This document shows positions 8,757-21,946 of a DNA stretch of 64,000 nucleotides, in pieces. The notes under the pieces are model-generated. The model searched no databases, was not told the origin of the DNA, and saw nothing but the letters and a program-made list of their open reading frames with translations. Position 1 is the first letter of the stretch; every line of letters begins with the position of its first letter. Origin of the DNA: Paenibacillus durus ATCC 35681 (lineage in GTDB: Bacteria > Bacillota > Bacilli > Paenibacillales > Paenibacillaceae); assembly GCF_000993825.1 (NCBI RefSeq), contig NZ_CP011114.1, forward strand, positions 4,464,001-4,528,000, in the 5' to 3' direction. Position numbers and translations under genes: made by a program.

Positions 8757-10435
8757 ACGGTTACCCCCTCTTTCACAGCTGGAGCCTCGCTCTTGCCTTC
8801 GGACACGACGCGAACGCCGCCTTTTGAAGCCGAGGAAGCATGCTGTGCATACAGACGCAGCAGCTTGCTGGCTTCAATCTTGAACTCTTCCAGACGCTCC
8901 GCACGTTTCGCCAGTTCTTCATCCGATACATGCAGCTGCAGCTTGCGGCTGGCGATATCGATCTCAATCATATCGCCGTCCTGTACCAGCGCAATCGTTC
9001 CGCCTTCAGCGGCTTCAGGGCTCGCATATCCGATCGACAGGCCGGACGTCGCGCCCGAGAAACGGCCGTCCGTTACCAGCGCGGCGCGCTTGAACTTGCC
9101 AAGGATTTCCGTACAGCGGTGCAGCTCGCGCATACCAGGTCCGCCTTTCGGTCCTTCATAACGGATGACGACGGCGTCGCCTTCCTGGATCAGACCCGCT
9201 TCATAGGCTTCCGAGAAGGCTTCCTCGGAGTTGAACACCTTAGCCGGTCCCGTGAAGCTTCTCAGCTCAGGAGCTACCGCCGACTGCTTGATCAGCGCGC
9301 CGTCTACAGCCAGGTTGCCTACCAGTACGGCTACGCCGCCTTCCTTGTCGAGCGGCTCTTCCAGCGTGCGGATAACATCGCGGTCGAGTACAGACGCATC
9401 CGCAATGTTGTTCTCCACGGAATCGCCTGTCACGGTCAGAGCTCCGGTGTGCAGCAATCCGCCGAGTTCCTTCATTAAAGCCTTCATTCCGCCGGCACGC
9501 TGCAGGTCGTTCGTGGTATATTCTTGGTTATTCGGCGTTACACCCGCCAGGAACGGTACGCGGCGGCTGATGTCGTCGAACAGGGTCATCGGCAGTTCGA
9601 TGCCGAGTTCATGCGCAATCGCCGGCAGATGCAGGCACGCGTTCAGCGAGCCGCCCATAGCGAGCAGCACGGAAATGGCATTCTCGAACGCTTCGCGGGT
9701 CATGATTTGGCTCGGCGTAATGCCTTTCTTCACCAGCTCTACGGCTTGACGTCCGGCAGCTTCAGCAGCGTCCAACTGCTCGTCCGACAATGCCTGCATC
9801 CAGGACGTATTCGGCATAGCCATGCCGAGCGCCTCGGACAATCCCTGCATCGTGTTCGCCGTTCCGAGGAACGGGCACGCTCCAGGACCCGGGTAGTATT
9901 GGTTGGTCACTTCAACCAGACCTTTTTCATCCAGCTTTCCGTCGAGGAATGCCCGTCTTGCCGCTTTGGATTCCTTCGGCTTGATGTGGTTCGGCATAAC
10001 TCCGCCAAGTACAACCAGACCCGGCAGGTTCAAGCGAGCGGCTGCCATCAGCATGCCTGGAACGATTTTGTCGCAGGAGCTAAGGACGACCATGCCGTCA
10101 AAAATACCATGCGCCTTCACCATCGTTTCCACGCTGTCGGCTACAATTTCGCGGCTCGGCAGCGAATATTTCATGCCTTCATGCCCTTGCGCGATTCCGT
10201 CGCAAACGGCGATGGTGTTGAATTCGAGCGCCAGACCGCCAGCAGCCTCGATCCCTGCCTTTACACGGTCAGCCAATTGGCGCAAATGCACATGTCCCGG
10301 CACGATTTCGTTCCAGGAGTTGGCTACGGCGATGACAGGCTTATCCATTTTGGAGTAGTCTACTCCGCAGGAACACAGATGGGCCTTCAGAATTGCTCTG
10401 GTAAACGGCGAGATGGTAGAAATCCGGTTGCTCAT
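8744..10435 (-). CDS. IlvD/Edd-family sugar-acid dehydratase
   Basis: 563 residues of the iron-sulfur IlvD/Edd dehydratase family. Candidate cluster cysteines: C78 in AVCDGIAQGHEGM, C121 in SSCDKIVPG, C187 in GACPFLGTANTMQ. From memory of the families, CDG plus GxCxFxGTANT is closer to 6-phosphogluconate dehydratase (Edd) than to branched-chain IlvD, although length and the C-terminal half look IlvD-like. It probably turns a gluconate-type acid, free or 6-phosphorylated, into the 2-keto-3-deoxy form for the aldolase. The ATG at 10435 has GGAGGG with a 7-base spacer; the longer frame to 10450 begins inside that site. Catabolic context argues against valine/isoleucine biosynthesis. Confidence 0.87.
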   Translation of the reverse strand: MSNRISTISPFTRAILKAHLCSCGVDYSKMDKPVIAVANSWNEIVPGHVHLRQLADRVKAGIEAAGGLALEFNTIAVCDGIAQGHEGMKYSLPSREIVADSVETMVKAHGIFDGMVVLSSCDKIVPGMLMAAARLNLPGLVVLGGVMPNHIKPKESKAARRAFLDGKLDEKGLVEVTNQYYPGPGACPFLGTANTMQGLSEALGMAMPNTSWMQALSDEQLDAAEAAGRQAVELVKKGITPSQIMTREAFENAISVLLAMGGSLNACLHLPAIAHELGIELPMTLFDDISRRVPFLAGVTPNNQEYTTNDLQRAGGMKALMKELGGLLHTGALTVTGDSVENNIADASVLDRDVIRTLEEPLDKEGGVAVLVGNLAVDGALIKQSAVAPELRSFTGPAKVFNSEEAFSEAYEAGLIQEGDAVVIRYEGPKGGPGMRELHRCTEILGKFKRAALVTDGRFSGATSGLSIGYASPEAAEGGTIALVQDGDMIEIDIASRKLQLHVSDEELAKRAERLEEFKIEASKLLRLYAQHASSASKGGVRVVSEGKSEAPAVKEGVTVCQK

Positions 10436-18713: not shown

Positions 18714-18764
18714 AAACCGGCCGGCCAAGGATGAATTCCTTGACCGGCCGGTTTGCTGTTTTTT
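18714..18764 (+). terminator. Strong hairpin followed by a T-run
   Basis: Arms AAACCGGCCGGCCAAGGA (18714-18731) and TCCTTGACCGGCCGGTTT (18736-18753), with one mismatch, precede TGTTTTTT (18757-18764). It has the form of an intrinsic terminator on the plus strand, yet no intact plus-strand gene precedes it. It may be left over from a lost gene. Confidence 0.65.
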
Positions 18765-18832
18765 ATGTGGGGAGTCCCTAAAGATTTTAGAAACCTGCTT
18801 TTAGGACAGCCTCAAAAATGGATTGTATTAAA

Positions 18833-18880
18833 TGTCTAAAGAAAATAAAGTTGTAGACTGAGAAAATATAGTATTAGACT
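18833..18880 (+). repeat. Left end of element: two TnsB-like sites
   Basis: Site 1: GAAAATAAAGTTGTAGACT (18841-18859) within the terminal inverted repeat. Site 2: AAAATATAGTATTAGACT (18863-18880), directly adjacent. Both read outward-to-inward like the right-end copies. Confidence 0.65.
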
Positions 18881-18971
18881 ACCGTCACTTCATTAAACTA
18901 ACGGGCAGGATAACGTGGAAACATATTTCACATACTCCAATTCCAGGTTATGGTAATATAGGGTTGAATTT

Positions 18972-19064
18972 ATGAAAAGTGTACAAGGGAGTGTAAGCGA
19001 AATGGCTGAAGAACCGTTCATCTTTCTAGCGTGTATAATAGGTTTTATCGTTAAGAATGGATGA
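18972..19064 (+). CDS. Possible 30-residue hydrophobic micro-ORF
   Basis: The frame runs from ATG 18972, or ATG 19002 with GGGAGTG upstream, and encodes MAEEPFIFLACIIGFIVKNG at its end, a single hydrophobic stretch. It stops 31 bp before the S51-like gene. It could be a small membrane peptide, a leader peptide or a remnant. No recognised family. Confidence 0.25.
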   Translation: MKSVQGSVSEMAEEPFIFLACIIGFIVKNG

Positions 19065-19095
19065 ATGTAAATAGTACATATGGAGGTAATTAAGT

Positions 19096-19764
19096 TTGAA
19101 AACTCACTACTATCTCAGTTGGTTTAATGATTTTTTTCCAGAGAAGCTGGTCCAATGGTTGCATGAGGATATAAAAGACAGAAAATCGCTTGTTATGATT
19201 AGCGCTCAACCGTCTGGTTATAAAGTTGAGCAAATTAACATTGATGATGTTTCTGAATGGACATGGTTGAATCAGGCTAACATTATTTTTAATGAATATC
19301 ATTTAATTGATAACCGCATGCAGAAGGAAGATGCCCAGCGATTAATTCAAAACGCTTCTGTCATTTTTTTATGCGGTGGAGATCCTGTTTTGCAGAACGA
19401 TTTTTTGGCGGAATATGAATTATCCGATGTTATTAAAAGCAGCAATGCCGTTATAATGGGTGCCAGCGCCGGTGCGATAAACATGGCTGCAAAATGGTTA
19501 AGCTTGAAAAACACTGGCTATGAAGTTGAAACAAGTACTATTTATGATGGTATTGGCTTTGATCATTTTGCCTATGAATCTCATTCTAAACGCGACTACG
19601 CCGCGTTTGTTCAAGGCTACCTGTTCCCCTTGTCTGAAGAGATTGATGTTTATGCGGCAGAACAGGAGAGCGCTATGCGTGTAAAGGACGGCAAAATAGA
19701 CATAATGGGGCCTGTATATTTAATTTCCCACTCAAAGATTCAGAAATTGGTTGAGACGCTCTAA
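19096..19764 (+). CDS. Peptidase S51 / dipeptidase E-like protein
   Basis: 222 residues with a class I glutamine-amidotransferase-like fold of the S51 group. The nucleophile elbow is GASAGA at 122-127 (S124), preceded by FLCGGDP at 92-97; the AYESHSKRD segment may supply histidine. Family members are serine peptidases (aspartyl dipeptidase, cyanophycinase relatives). TTG start with GGAGGT and a normal spacer. It is AT-rich and is the main intact gene within the putative Tn7-like element. Substrate unknown. Confidence 0.8.
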   Translation: MKTHYYLSWFNDFFPEKLVQWLHEDIKDRKSLVMISAQPSGYKVEQINIDDVSEWTWLNQANIIFNEYHLIDNRMQKEDAQRLIQNASVIFLCGGDPVLQNDFLAEYELSDVIKSSNAVIMGASAGAINMAAKWLSLKNTGYEVETSTIYDGIGFDHFAYESHSKRDYAAFVQGYLFPLSEEIDVYAAEQESAMRVKDGKIDIMGPVYLISHSKIQKLVETL

Positions 19765-19934
19765 ATAGGGTGAGTGGCTGTGACCTAACTGATTTAATTC
19801 CTTTTGATGTATAAAATCAAGGCTTACAGCGAATCATCTCAGGTTTCCTCTCTATGTTTGGAATACGGTTTGTAAACAGATGCAATCTTAATATCCCCAG
19901 GACTTATTGTTGGGCAGAAATAATAAATTTTGTA

Positions 19935-19957
19935 AACCGCCTTCAATGGCGGTCTTT
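19935..19957 (+). terminator. Small intrinsic terminator-like hairpin
   Basis: ACCGCC, loop TTCAAT, GGCGGT then TCTTTCT; in the gap after the S51-like gene. Confidence 0.5.
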
Positions 19958-19989
19958 CTATGCTCGGCGGATGCTAGCTGCTCATTTTA

Positions 19990-20016
19990 TTGAACTAACG
20001 GAGAACGTTAGTTCAA
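19990..20016. repeat. Perfect 11-bp inverted repeat
   Basis: TTGAACTAACG and CGTTAGTTCAA around a 5-base loop, without a T-run, so not an obvious terminator. Could be an operator or a recombination site. The rest of the gap 19765-20127 holds only the two terminator-like hairpins. Confidence 0.6.
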
Positions 20017-20055
20017 TGCCATGGGGTAGACCATTAGTTAAATCACATATCGGAC

Positions 20056-20085
20056 GAGCCTCTGCAAAACAGCAGGGGCTTTTTT
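20056..20085 (+). terminator. Intrinsic terminator
   Basis: GCCTCTGC and GCAGGGGC arms followed by TTTTTT; about 43 bp before the interrupted secreted-protein gene. Confidence 0.65.
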
Positions 20086-20127
20086 CGTTTTAAAACATGA
20101 AATATCTCAAACTATAAAGCGAAGAAG

Positions 20128-20457
20128 TTGTTATTCTTGATTAAGTCAGGTAAAATTCTCTTCAGAAACTTAGCCATTATCGCTGTTTTGTTGCTTACTT
20201 TTACTACCACAGGCAAGGTTACTTTCGCTAGCGAAGTTTCGACGGCTCCGGAACCTACAAGCACAACCACACTTTCAACTAAGGCTCCAGCGGCAGCAGA
20301 AAACTTTAGCGGCCCTAATGCTGGAGGTGTGACTTTCACTAAAAATTAGACATACTATACACCAGGAACCTACAGCGTTGGCGCGGTCGCCCAAATTTAT
20401 ACAGATAAAGGCCCAGCATCTTGCTTTGTAGGTCCGAGAGTAGTAGTTATTTTTTAA
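20128..20457 (+). pseudogene. Small secreted protein gene interrupted by an in-frame TAG
   Basis: Codons from TTG 20128 encode a signal peptide (KSGKILFRN then AIIAVLLLTF, cleavage near TFA-SE) and a Thr/Ala-rich segment, and reach TAG at 20347-20349. The same frame continues without further stop for 35 codons (TYYTPGTYSVGAVAQIYTDK...RVVVIF) to TAA at 20455-20457. The part after the TAG looks like normal beta-rich coding sequence, so a nonsense mutation in a gene of about 110 codons is the simplest reading. Readthrough cannot be excluded. Start codon uncertain: no good binding site. Confidence 0.55.
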
Positions 20458-20485
20458 TGATATTTTACATTTTTGAGGTGAGCAT

Positions 20486-20737
20486 TTGAAAGTTATTGAG
20501 TTGGCAATTGTATTAAATGAGGATCCGCGCGCTGAATATTCTGATCTGGTTGCGTTGCCGTTCATTCCAAGAACAGGCGAGCTTCTTCTATGGAATAGCA
20601 AACTCTATATTGTGACAAACGTTATGTATAGTTTTGACACAAACCCGGCGGATTATAATTATGACGCAGATCCCAATAAACAAAGCACTTTTGCCCATGA
20701 TATATGCTATAAAGTTTTTTTGAAGCCTACTAGATAA
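20486..20737 (+). CDS. Small hypothetical protein
   Basis: 83 residues, TTG start with GAGGTGA five bases upstream. The sequence (IPRTGELLLWNSKLYIVTNVMYSFD) has the look of a small cytoplasmic beta protein. It lies 28 bp after the interrupted secreted gene, inside the putative transposon. No family recognised. Confidence 0.6.
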   Translation: MKVIELAIVLNEDPRAEYSDLVALPFIPRTGELLLWNSKLYIVTNVMYSFDTNPADYNYDADPNKQSTFAHDICYKVFLKPTR

Positions 20738-20739
20738 AA

Positions 20740-20925
20740 ACTTGTCCTCCGACAGCCGACACGCAGCATATCCGCGAGCTGGGATCCGAGCGCCTGGCCG
20801 TACTGCTCGCCATTGCTTCGCATATGGACGAGACCGGCAGCTGCTACCCGACACAGGAGCAGATCGCGGATATGCTCGGGATCAGGCACGACGGCCAACA
20901 AGCGAATAAAACAGCGACAGTCTAG
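20740..20925 (+). pseudogene. Fragment of a replication-initiator-type HTH protein
   Basis: The open segment reads HIRELGSERLAVLLAIASHM followed by DETGSCYPTQEQIADMLGI, the pattern of the HTH_36-like domain of plasmid and phage replication/replisome proteins. It has no start and breaks off after the first helix-turn-helix. GC is higher than the flanking AT-rich DNA. It probably marks a past plasmid or phage recombination. Confidence 0.5.
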
Positions 20926-20959
20926 GACTTTATTTTCTCGTCCTTTGCTGTCGCTGTTT
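20909..20959 (+). terminator. Inverted repeat overlapping a transposon-end site
   Basis: AAACAGCGACAG (20909-20920) and CTGTCGCTGTTT (20948-20959), perfect 12-bp arms around one TnsB-like site. May act as terminator for rightward cargo transcription. Confidence 0.55.
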
Positions 20960-21069
20960 CAGTTTCTAGGGTCAGTCTAAAACTTATTTTATGAAGTCTG
21001 ACGGTATGACAATTGGGAGAACCGCGTGGAACATAGCCATCGAGTCTAATACTTTATTTTCTGCTGACA
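20919..21069 (-). repeat. Right end of element: three TnsB-like sites
   Basis: On the minus strand, AAAATAAAGTATTAGACT (terminal, 21043-21060), ATAAAATAAGTTTTAGACT (20974-20992) and AGAAAATAAAGTCCTAGACT (20919-20938). Inverted relative to the left end; unequal numbers of sites at the two ends are usual in Tn7-like elements. Confidence 0.65.
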
Positions 21070-21091: not shown

Positions 21092-21946
21092 CTAAAAAGC
21101 CGGAACGACAGCGACGCCGTATTTATCTTCGATAAATTTTTTGACATCCGGACTGGTCAGGGCTGCATCCAGCTTCTTGATCTCCTCGCGGTTCTCATCG
21201 CCTTTGCGGACAACGACTACGTTGGCATAAGGCGAATTCGCATCTTCGCGGAACAGCGCTGTCTTGGGATCAATCTTTGCCTCCAGAACGAGGTTGGTGT
21301 TGATGATGGCTCCGTCCAGATCGGGCAGCGAACGCGGAAGGGTAGCCGAATCCGCCTCGACGAACTCCAGGTTGTGCGGGTTATCCACGATATCTTTAGG
21401 AGTTGCCTCGTAAGTCGTAATACCGTCCTTCAGCTTGATCAGCCCTTGCTGCTGAAGCAGCACAAGCGCCCGGTATTCGTTGGAGGGATTGTTCGGGATG
21501 CCGATTTTCGCGCCGTGCGGGATTTCGTCCTTGCTCTTCAGCTTCTCGGAGTAGAAGCCGATCGGTTCCACATGCACTTTGGCGGTAACTACGAAATCAT
21601 AGCCCTTCTCTCCTTTAACGGAATCCAGATAAGGGACGTGCTGGAAGTAGTTGGCGTCGATCTGCTTCTCCTGCAGCGCAGGATTAAGCTGTCCGTCATC
21701 ATCCAGCGTCACTACCTCCAAATTGACGCCTTCTTCCTTCAGCTTCGGTTTGATAAACTCCAGAATCTCGGCATGCGGCACAGCCGACGCCCCGACCTTA
21801 ATTGTCACTTCCTTCGGCGCTGCACTTTCTGCCGGGCTTGTCTGCGGAGCAGCCGCTTCCCCGTTCCCGTTCTGCGATCCGCAGCCGGCCAAGATTCCTG
21901 TCGCTACAATGACCGCCGCAAACCATAAGCTTCTTTTTCTCGCCAT
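21092..21946 (-). CDS. metQ: D/L-methionine ABC transporter substrate-binding lipoprotein
   Basis: 284 residues. Lipoprotein signal with lipobox ILAGC (C22), a Gly/Ala-rich spacer, then the NlpA/MetQ domain (VGASAVPHAEILEF, ANYFQHVPYL, IGIPNNPSNEYRAL). It captures methionine outside the membrane for MetNI. The ATG at 21946 fits the signal peptide; the longer frame to 22090 adds an implausible leader overlapping metI. Last gene of metNIQ, and its stop lies 22 bp from the putative transposon end. Confidence 0.93.
   Translation of the reverse strand: MARKRSLWFAAVIVATGILAGCGSQNGNGEAAAPQTSPAESAAPKEVTIKVGASAVPHAEILEFIKPKLKEEGVNLEVVTLDDDGQLNPALQEKQIDANYFQHVPYLDSVKGEKGYDFVVTAKVHVEPIGFYSEKLKSKDEIPHGAKIGIPNNPSNEYRALVLLQQQGLIKLKDGITTYEATPKDIVDNPHNLEFVEADSATLPRSLPDLDGAIINTNLVLEAKIDPKTALFREDANSPYANVVVVRKGDENREEIKKLDAALTSPDVKKFIEDKYGVAVVPAF

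Follow-up and report, generated by a model that had tools for sequence, protein, structure and literature searches.

This study concerns a 2237-bp element at positions 18833-21069 of a 64,000-nucleotide stretch of Paenibacillus durus ATCC 35681 (contig NZ_CP011114.1, positions 4,464,001 to 4,528,000), which is referred to below as the window. The features of the element and of its relatives point, with a probability of about 0.8, to a non-autonomous Paenibacillus element of the Tn7 family which carries exchangeable, integron-like gene cassettes, apparently without an integron integrase. A preliminary description of the window had proposed a cargo-only element with Tn7-like ends. The element starts with TGTC and finishes with GACA, and comparison of both ends confirmed the proposed 27-bp terminal inverted repeats, TGTCTAAAGAAAATAAAGTTGTAGACT and TGTCAGCAGAAAATAAAGTATTAGACT, which are identical at 22 of 27 positions. 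Predicted TnsB-binding sites (TnsB-type sites) form an array at each end, and the two arrays are inverted relative to one another. On the left there are two sites 21 bp apart, at 18844 (exact) and 18865 (one mismatch), and on the right there are three, at 21043 (exact), 20974 (two mismatches) and 20919 (exact), with spacings of 69 and 55 bp. With the terminal sites counted, the two copies on the left and three on the right that had been described were found again. Tn7 carries tandem sites at its R end and three spaced sites at its L end, and the left and right ends of the window element are termed R and L below. The motif AATAAAGTNNTAGACT, with at most one mismatch, occurs 21 times (13 + 8) in the same genome, compared with 10 times for a reversed control; ten of its copies there are exact, three of them within the element. 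The cargo is AT-rich, as had been noted, with a G+C content of 40.6% in the element against 53.5% in the whole window.

Comparison with relatives makes it near certain that the element arrived in a single insertion immediately beyond metQ, which gave rise to a 5-bp duplication. The comparison drew on 100 genomes of the genus Paenibacillus, designated by G-numbers and including the genome studied here (G000); loci fetched from these genomes are designated by L-numbers. A contiguous empty site is present in G018, G053 and G071, with identities of 90, 89 and 88%. All three empty sites are 5 bases shorter than the joined flanks of the element, and the 5-base gap is identical in the three alignments. 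For example, G018 reads TGGATTGT-ACTAAAGTTTC where the genome studied here reads TGGATTGTATTAAA-[element]-CTAAAGTTTC. G018 has CTAAA as its target sequence, and the targets of G053 and G071 each depart from this at a single base. Thus, the suggestion that the flanking TTAAA and CTAAA are a 5-bp target duplication is borne out by this gap, and the empty sites agree with ends at 18833 and 21069. Among the relatives compared, no sequence ran uninterrupted across the ends and no empty site was at odds with them. The insertion is also present in G099, and because its left end there is flanked by CTAAA, the TTAAA copy in the window is most simply explained as a one-base change. The G099 contigs break inside the element, the sequence adjacent to its R end is unlike that of the window, and there is no L end where the contig meets the metQ side. 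In G021 the element is absent and the flank is rearranged, so this genome is uninformative on the site.

The metQ open reading frame (ORF), of the NlpA lipoprotein family, lies on the minus strand to the right of the element and ends at 21092, which places the insertion 22 bp past the gene. A hairpin is found to the left of the element at approximately 18714-18754; in the relatives with empty sites, this hairpin comes soon after metQ. The insertion is not at attTn7 downstream of glmS, its neighbour being metQ, and an alternative target route (TnsE) is possible for it. The role of metQ as an equivalent of attTn7 was considered and set aside: despite the short distance to the gene, it is the L end and not the R end that faces metQ.

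The window element is regarded as a transposase-less element with Tn7-family ends for several reasons. First, tns-bearing relatives share its sites. The tandem of two sites, with at most two mismatches, was identified in 44 of the 100 genus genomes (this one included), and its reversed control in none of them. The exact tandem was found in 53 stretches of named GTDB genomes, mainly from Paenibacillus, with some from Cohnella, Brevibacillus and others. TnsA (PF08722) was detected in 30 and TnsB in 29 of the 100 genomes, and in relatives tnsA lies just inside ends with matching sites, in agreement with the earlier view of the motif as a TnsB-type end repeat. A tns-encoding element with the same end sites is present in G059, where Pfam identified TnsA, TnsB (Mu-transpos_C), TnsC, TnsD and TnsE; its TnsB matches that of Escherichia coli Tn7 (7pik) with E=7e-111, and the element is flanked by the 5-bp duplication GTTAT/ATAAC. 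In G077, Pfam identified TnsC, TnsD and TnsE. The tandem-site elements of G059 and G012 adjoin a gene with GlmS domains. Secondly, the ends and the duplication are exact. Lastly, no TnsA or TnsB match was obtained in the genome studied here by searches that find them in 30 and 29 genomes of the genus, and no tns gene matched inside the window element, so that the reported lack of a transposase holds for the element. In this genome, the rve model (PF00665) was dropped as a test for TnsB, since the TnsB of this family gives no match to it, and a TnsB protein was used as query instead. These results support the assignment of the element as a non-autonomous derivative of the Tn7 family and not as an autonomous Tn7.

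The motif probably resembles the TnsB sites of Tn7 itself. Repeats of AAATAAAGT, spaced at about 20 or 40 bp, are found upstream of tnsA in Tn7-like elements from Klebsiella, Escherichia and Peribacillus plasmids, so that this half of the motif is shared more widely; the remainder of the site in these elements differs. The G059 element (L087, 5208-17876) is in its own right a Gram-positive, glmS-linked relative of Tn7 with a complete TnsABCDE set, in which a match to TnsE_C is included; its cargo is of the type I restriction-modification kind.

The preliminary description was correct that the element holds cargo and no transposase, but it missed the cassette organisation of that cargo. A peptidase module at about 18893-20016 is bounded at both ends by inverted-arm sites of about 26 bp (TTAAGCTAAC-GGG...-GATAGTTTAA), which are referred to as cores; CATTAAACTAACGGGCAGGATAACG adjoins the R end and TTGAACTAACGGAGAACGTTAGTTCAA follows the peptidase gene. 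An all-against-all comparison of 63 chosen loci identified the same module, matching over 18890-20016 of the window, in L203 (G018), L204 (G002) and L205 (G053), that is, in three other species, at other loci and with other neighbours. When the four copies are aligned, the flanks on the left differ as far as the core arm and the modules agree from GGGCAG on, while on the right the copies are alike through CTAACGG and unlike beyond the second arm. Half of each bounding core moves with the module and the other half differs between copies. Because the similarity in the four copies stops within both core sites, the module is cut inside its two cores.

Cores are widespread in the genus. The pattern TTAAGCTAACGGGCAGNWTA, with at most two mismatches, matched in 95 of the 100 genomes, with a maximum of 101 matches per genome and five in the genome studied here, and its reversed control matched 0-1 times. 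The core consists of two inverted arms of about 10 bp around 6-7 bp, with the consensus GTTAGYT / ARCTAAC. Cores of the palR type number 7-10 on one strand and zero on the other in the 20-kb stretches L273, L274 (G020), L282 (G046), L312 (G096) and L281 (G074). In 35 distinct places, a palL core is followed 46-74 bp on by a palR core. When these intercassette segments were folded singly, all 35 formed a hairpin, with a stem of at least 6 bp in 34 and a z value below -2 in 31. The stem sequences differ widely, and RNAalifold found no consensus pairs in the segments, probably because the hairpins do not line up with one another. The direction of the core is also that of the longest ORF in 37 of 44 core-to-core intervals. 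Mostly co-oriented gene modules, which stand in arrays and are shared as units, are a trait that the system has in common with integrons.

Exchange of cassettes at the cores is well supported by sequence comparison between genomes. For 168 ends from the 85 cross-genome similarities of at least 300 bp, a core was no more than 25 bp away in both partners in 24 cases, compared with a mean of 0.09 and a maximum of 2 in 200 random trials; the core pattern used for this count was noisy, with 359 matches against 166 for the reversed pattern. A loose core pattern, with 721 matches over all loci, was replaced by stricter ones. The 24 ends represent four module families: the peptidase module (11), a tyrosine-recombinase module (4), a third module in L100, L275, L281 and L286 (6) and a junction of tnpC with a core (3). 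Other modules are shared with less clear ends: L035 and L203 have their first module in common, and an S51-family module is found both in a Tn7-ended element of G048 and in a G020 array. Of 19 array and module proteins submitted to Pfam, three had no match; the matches among the others included three acetyltransferases, a phosphotransferase (APH), glyoxalases, NUDIX, peptidases S51 and S66, a FabA-like protein and tyrosine recombinases. In addition, a Cytobacillus plasmid carries an S51 gene that shows 73% identity across 63% of the module, with core-like sites between its genes (loose pattern, at most five mismatches), and a Paenibacillus plasmid carries a three-gene module at 87% identity with an exact core nearby on the opposite strand. 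L051 and L117 contain apparently cassette-free junctions, to which one core contributes its R-side half and a different core its L-side half.

Cargo-only elements with Tn7-type ends are common in the genus. In the loci examined, an R end could be paired with the next L end in 23 cases, of 335-8711 bp, after one nested R end was dropped; some of the pairs without a duplication may be wrong, above all the 8711-bp pair. A perfect 5-bp duplication flanks 13 of the 23 paired elements, and three more agree at 4 of 5 bases. No tblastn match to tnsA-E was found in any of the 23. Of these elements, 17 have a core close to the R end and 17 have one close to the L end. The 89 distinct R-end flanks comprise 43 with a core within 60 nt, 11 with tns-type sequence and 35 with neither. 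Among R ends with at least 1.5 kb downstream, tnsA or tnsB was in the locus for 10 of 11 of the tns type, compared with 1 of 35 of the core type. A hairpin surrounds the innermost site in 22 of 30 distinct L ends (judged by eye, one being weak). It is absent from all four L ends taken to belong to tns-bearing elements (G059, G077, G004 and G012), a pairing that is backed by matching duplications in G059 and G077. The window element as a recent deletion of a tns-bearing element was also considered and found unlikely, since its subterminal sequences differ in type. Given the R-end flanks, the cargo-only elements in general do not look freshly deleted either. A third type of R-end flank, like TCCATGCCGCTAACGCGGCACCATCAG and palindromic, stands in place of the usual core in L202 (G099), L017, L022, L052 and L120. 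L043, L112 and L133 hold minimal, 335-504 bp elements which have both ends without a core or L-end hairpin and resemble miniature inverted-repeat transposable elements. A tiny Tn7-ended element with convergent L and R ends, L312 (G096) 9324-9622, seemingly lies within a chromosomal cassette array.

A second element is present in the genome studied here, at G000:C1:5252045-5257347 (L018 1546-6848), with CCAAG on both sides. It contains a TnpB/TnpC remnant and, after a core, an ORF that combines ricin-type lectin repeats with an insecticidal Toxin_10 domain, and it also carries a DUF2239 / DUF1330-like / hydrolase module in inverted orientation. Other TnsB-type ends that are single or unpaired, in some cases adjoining a core, occur at C1:2013879, 3347201-3347268, 4171454-4171489, 2126343-2126388, 4163298 and 1552624. 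These look like decayed elements.

The features of the window element are listed in Table 1. Neither ORF of the cargo to the right of the second core had a Pfam match. The GC-rich fragment just inside the L end, as judged by reading it, presumably resembles part of a helix-turn-helix replication-type protein.

Table 1. Features of the element and its insertion site, in window coordinates.
Feature	Position	Strand	Remarks
Left copy of 5-bp target duplication, TTAAA (most likely CTAAA before)	18828..18832		Empty sites in three relatives; CTAAA at left end in G099
R-type transposon end: TGTC terminus and two tandem TnsB-type sites	18833..18880	+	Sites 18844-18859 and 18865-18880, 21-bp period; layout as at the tnsA-proximal end of tns-bearing relatives
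Core site 1 (palR, attI-like), TTAAACTAACGGGCAGGATAACGTGG	18893..18918	+	Left boundary of shared module
Cassette gene, peptidase S51 family protein, 222 aa	19096..19764	+	PF03575, 26.6 bits against cut-off of 23.9; module in three other species
Terminator-like hairpin ACCGCCTTCAATGGCGGT, then T-rich, near cassette end	19936..19959	+	Read in sequence; kept in four copies
Core site 2 (palL, cassette end), ATTGAACTAACGGAGAACGTTAGTTCAAT	19989..20017	+	Right boundary of shared module
Further cargo: ORFs 20128-20349 and 20486-20737, GC-rich gene fragment near 20745-20905	20018..20909	+	Part also in G099 beside the same flank
L-end hairpin around innermost TnsB-type site (20919-20934)	20910..20958		Read in sequence, compared with other L ends
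Middle TnsB-type site of L end, two mismatches	20974..20989	-	Spacing matches other L ends
L-type terminal inverted repeat	21043..21069	-	Includes TnsB-type site 21043-21058
Right copy of 5-bp target duplication, CTAAA	21070..21074		Empty-site comparison

The likeliest candidate for the recombinase acting on the cores, though not a settled one, is a Tn554-like TnpABC trio. In G046 (L282 6602-10337), TnpA (392 aa) and TnpB (624 aa), both matching PF00589, are followed in tandem by TnpC (131 aa, DUF6262), and a core starts within 10 bp after TnpC. Across 19 distinct loci with a tnpC match, a core lies within 400 bp after the match in ten, and in nine of these it starts within about 62 bp. A TnsB-type site was found directly upstream of the trio or its remnant in the second element described above, in G037, in G096 and in Paenibacillus sp. 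ACRRX. With the integron-integrase model TIGR02249, the G046 proteins gave 42 bits (TnpA) and 29 bits (TnpB) against a cut-off of 265. Together, these loci suggest a full form in the order R end - tnpABC - core - cassettes - core - hairpin - L end; none of the loci examined has all of these parts intact.

Under the proposed explanation, TnsA and TnsB, with TnsC and a target selector, would have been supplied by a co-resident or incoming tns-bearing element and would have cut and pasted the window element in trans. A tyrosine recombinase, most likely the TnpA/TnpB/TnpC trio, would swap modules at the cores, and the window element would be a reduced derivative of the full form from which the trio has been lost. 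Since neither the tns genes nor the trio is in the element, both its transposition and the exchange of its cassettes would need helpers from elsewhere.

Several observations weigh against this explanation. First, no core was found within 400 bp after tnpC in 9 of the 19 loci, and three of the ten loci that have one (G022, G060 and G025) are near-identical there. No TnsB-type end precedes the trio in G046 or G074, and in G017 the nearby site is inverted. TnpB of near-full length was found in only 3 of 16 genomes searched (G046, G074 and G096); G000 and G017 contain pieces, and the matches in the others were weak and could be to any tyrosine recombinase. Because G020, G034 and G065 are array-rich and yet lack a good TnpB match, another recombinase may act in them. 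A tyrosine recombinase of about 280 aa, which is itself a cassette common to G018 (L203 6288-7127) and G074 (L281 17442-18284), is a possible second integrase. Secondly, the palL-type pattern matched at two places in the genome studied here against one for the reversed control, which is hardly above chance. Other 20-kb stretches of array genomes have few or no cores (none in L310, L308 and L272), and the longest ORF is opposite to the core direction in 7 of 44 intervals. Third, the 24 core-ended similarity ends are not independent, as 11 come from the peptidase module, and 6 of the 85 similarities have both ends in cores, five of them in that module. In addition, a core immediately ahead of the L-end hairpin, as present in 17 of the 23 paired elements, is missing from the window element, and its right-hand cargo (20018-20909) is ragged and holds gene fragments. 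Lastly, transposition and cassette excision are both inferred from sequence alone.

The alternative that survives best is that the cassettes are real and are moved by host recombinases of the XerC/XerD type or by the ~280-aa tyrosine recombinase, as in pdif modules, with TnpABC a mere passenger. The arm-and-spacer layout of the core is the usual one for Xer-type sites, many cores are found in genomes without a good TnpB match, and the ~280-aa recombinase gene occurs as a cassette in G018 and in G074. Against it, nine loci have the start of a core close to the end of the tnpC match, and four have a TnsB-type site just ahead of the trio or its remnant, which is the position expected of an integrase module. 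The core is also probably unlike the dif consensus. We consider this alternative possible but rather unlikely. Host or second recombinases aside, it is improbable that the window holds an ordinary decayed or cargo-only Tn7-like element, with palindromes that are transcription terminators and a peptidase module shared through ordinary horizontal transfer. The hairpins between cores are of the terminator type in all 35 cases, many palindromes come just after genes, and the right-hand cargo of the window element is ragged. Against this reading stand the module boundaries inside the cores of both partners, far above random and in four module families, the bounding cores of which one half travels with the module as the other half changes, the palR cores confined to one strand in several stretches, and the core after tnpC in 10 of 19 loci.

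Just as little credence is given to the shuffling of modules by homologous recombination between dispersed core repeats, with no dedicated recombinase. The cores are numerous and alike, but the breakpoints stay within one core with no spread into neighbouring sequence, and the cores are diverged and only about 26 bp long, which is short for RecA. The sites known as attC end in GTTRRRY / RYYYAAC. A true integron, with an IntI integrase and attI and attC sites, would share the array layout, the mostly single-gene modules, the cassette-type gene content and the hairpin in each intercassette site, but is very improbable, as TnpA and TnpB of G046 fall far under the integrase cut-off (the genus genomes were not searched for IntI) and the conserved core GTTAGYT is one position off the attC consensus.

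Returning to the cassette-bearing Tn7-family element, the odds slightly favour a still broader proposal, a Paenibacillus gene-cassette system mechanistically separate from integrons. It would be marked by inverted-arm duplex cores, a hairpin between cassettes and a Tn554-like trio beside the site, and it would exist both as sedentary chromosomal arrays and as mobile Tn7-ended versions, of which the window element would be a small one without its recombinase.

The survey of Benler et al. (PMC8649781) required tnsB and that of Faure et al. (PMC10293859) starts from tnsC, and the word Paenibacillus was not found in the main text of either. The IntegronFinder 2.0 article (PMC9024848) gives a single complete integron and a few isolated attC clusters in Firmicutes, which also argues against a true integron here, and a review (PMC8618304) names Firmicutes among the phyla with integrons. 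Among the papers listed by searches of an open-access library, no title or abstract beginning described Tn7 elements of the cargo-only kind, or cassettes like these, in Paenibacillus. If the cassette reading is true, a phylum that rarely yields complete integrons (PMC9024848) has an independent means of storing and trading genes, hitched to Tn7 ends. The genes traded would include members of the acetyltransferase, phosphotransferase and glyoxalase families among the arrays examined. The related sites on Bacillaceae plasmids would, if true, extend the cassette system beyond Paenibacillus.

The system can be compared with several known ones. The window element is like Tn7 in having an array of TnsB-type sites at each end (in tandem at R, and as three spaced sites at L), its TGT...ACA termini, its 5-bp duplication and its glmS-linked relatives with tns genes. 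It is unlike Tn7 in that it has no tns genes, lies beside metQ and not glmS, has other sequences inside both ends and has a hairpin around the inner L-end site. Mini-Tn7 vectors and the mobile insertion cassettes (MIC) of Bacillus also have transposon ends around a transposase-less cargo with a helper in trans, whereas the Paenibacillus elements are natural and genus-wide, have Tn7-family and not insertion sequence (IS) ends, and carry an organised cassette cargo. Integrons share the small genes in one-strand arrays, the units shared between repeated sites and the recombinase module beside the site, and the class 2 integron is likewise carried between Tn7-type ends. The Paenibacillus system differs from integrons in its candidate recombinases, which are probably not integron integrases, and in its duplex-type inverted-arm core, which is apparently not a canonical attC. 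The pdif modules of Acinetobacter plasmids are also gene modules between short cores of the tyrosine-recombinase type, whereas the Paenibacillus sites are in direct orientation, with a hairpin between modules, an unrelated core sequence and chromosomal arrays. Lastly, the trio resembles TnpABC of Tn554 in the order and approximate sizes of its proteins and differs in its location, which is beside a cassette site and, in four loci, just inside a Tn7-type end.

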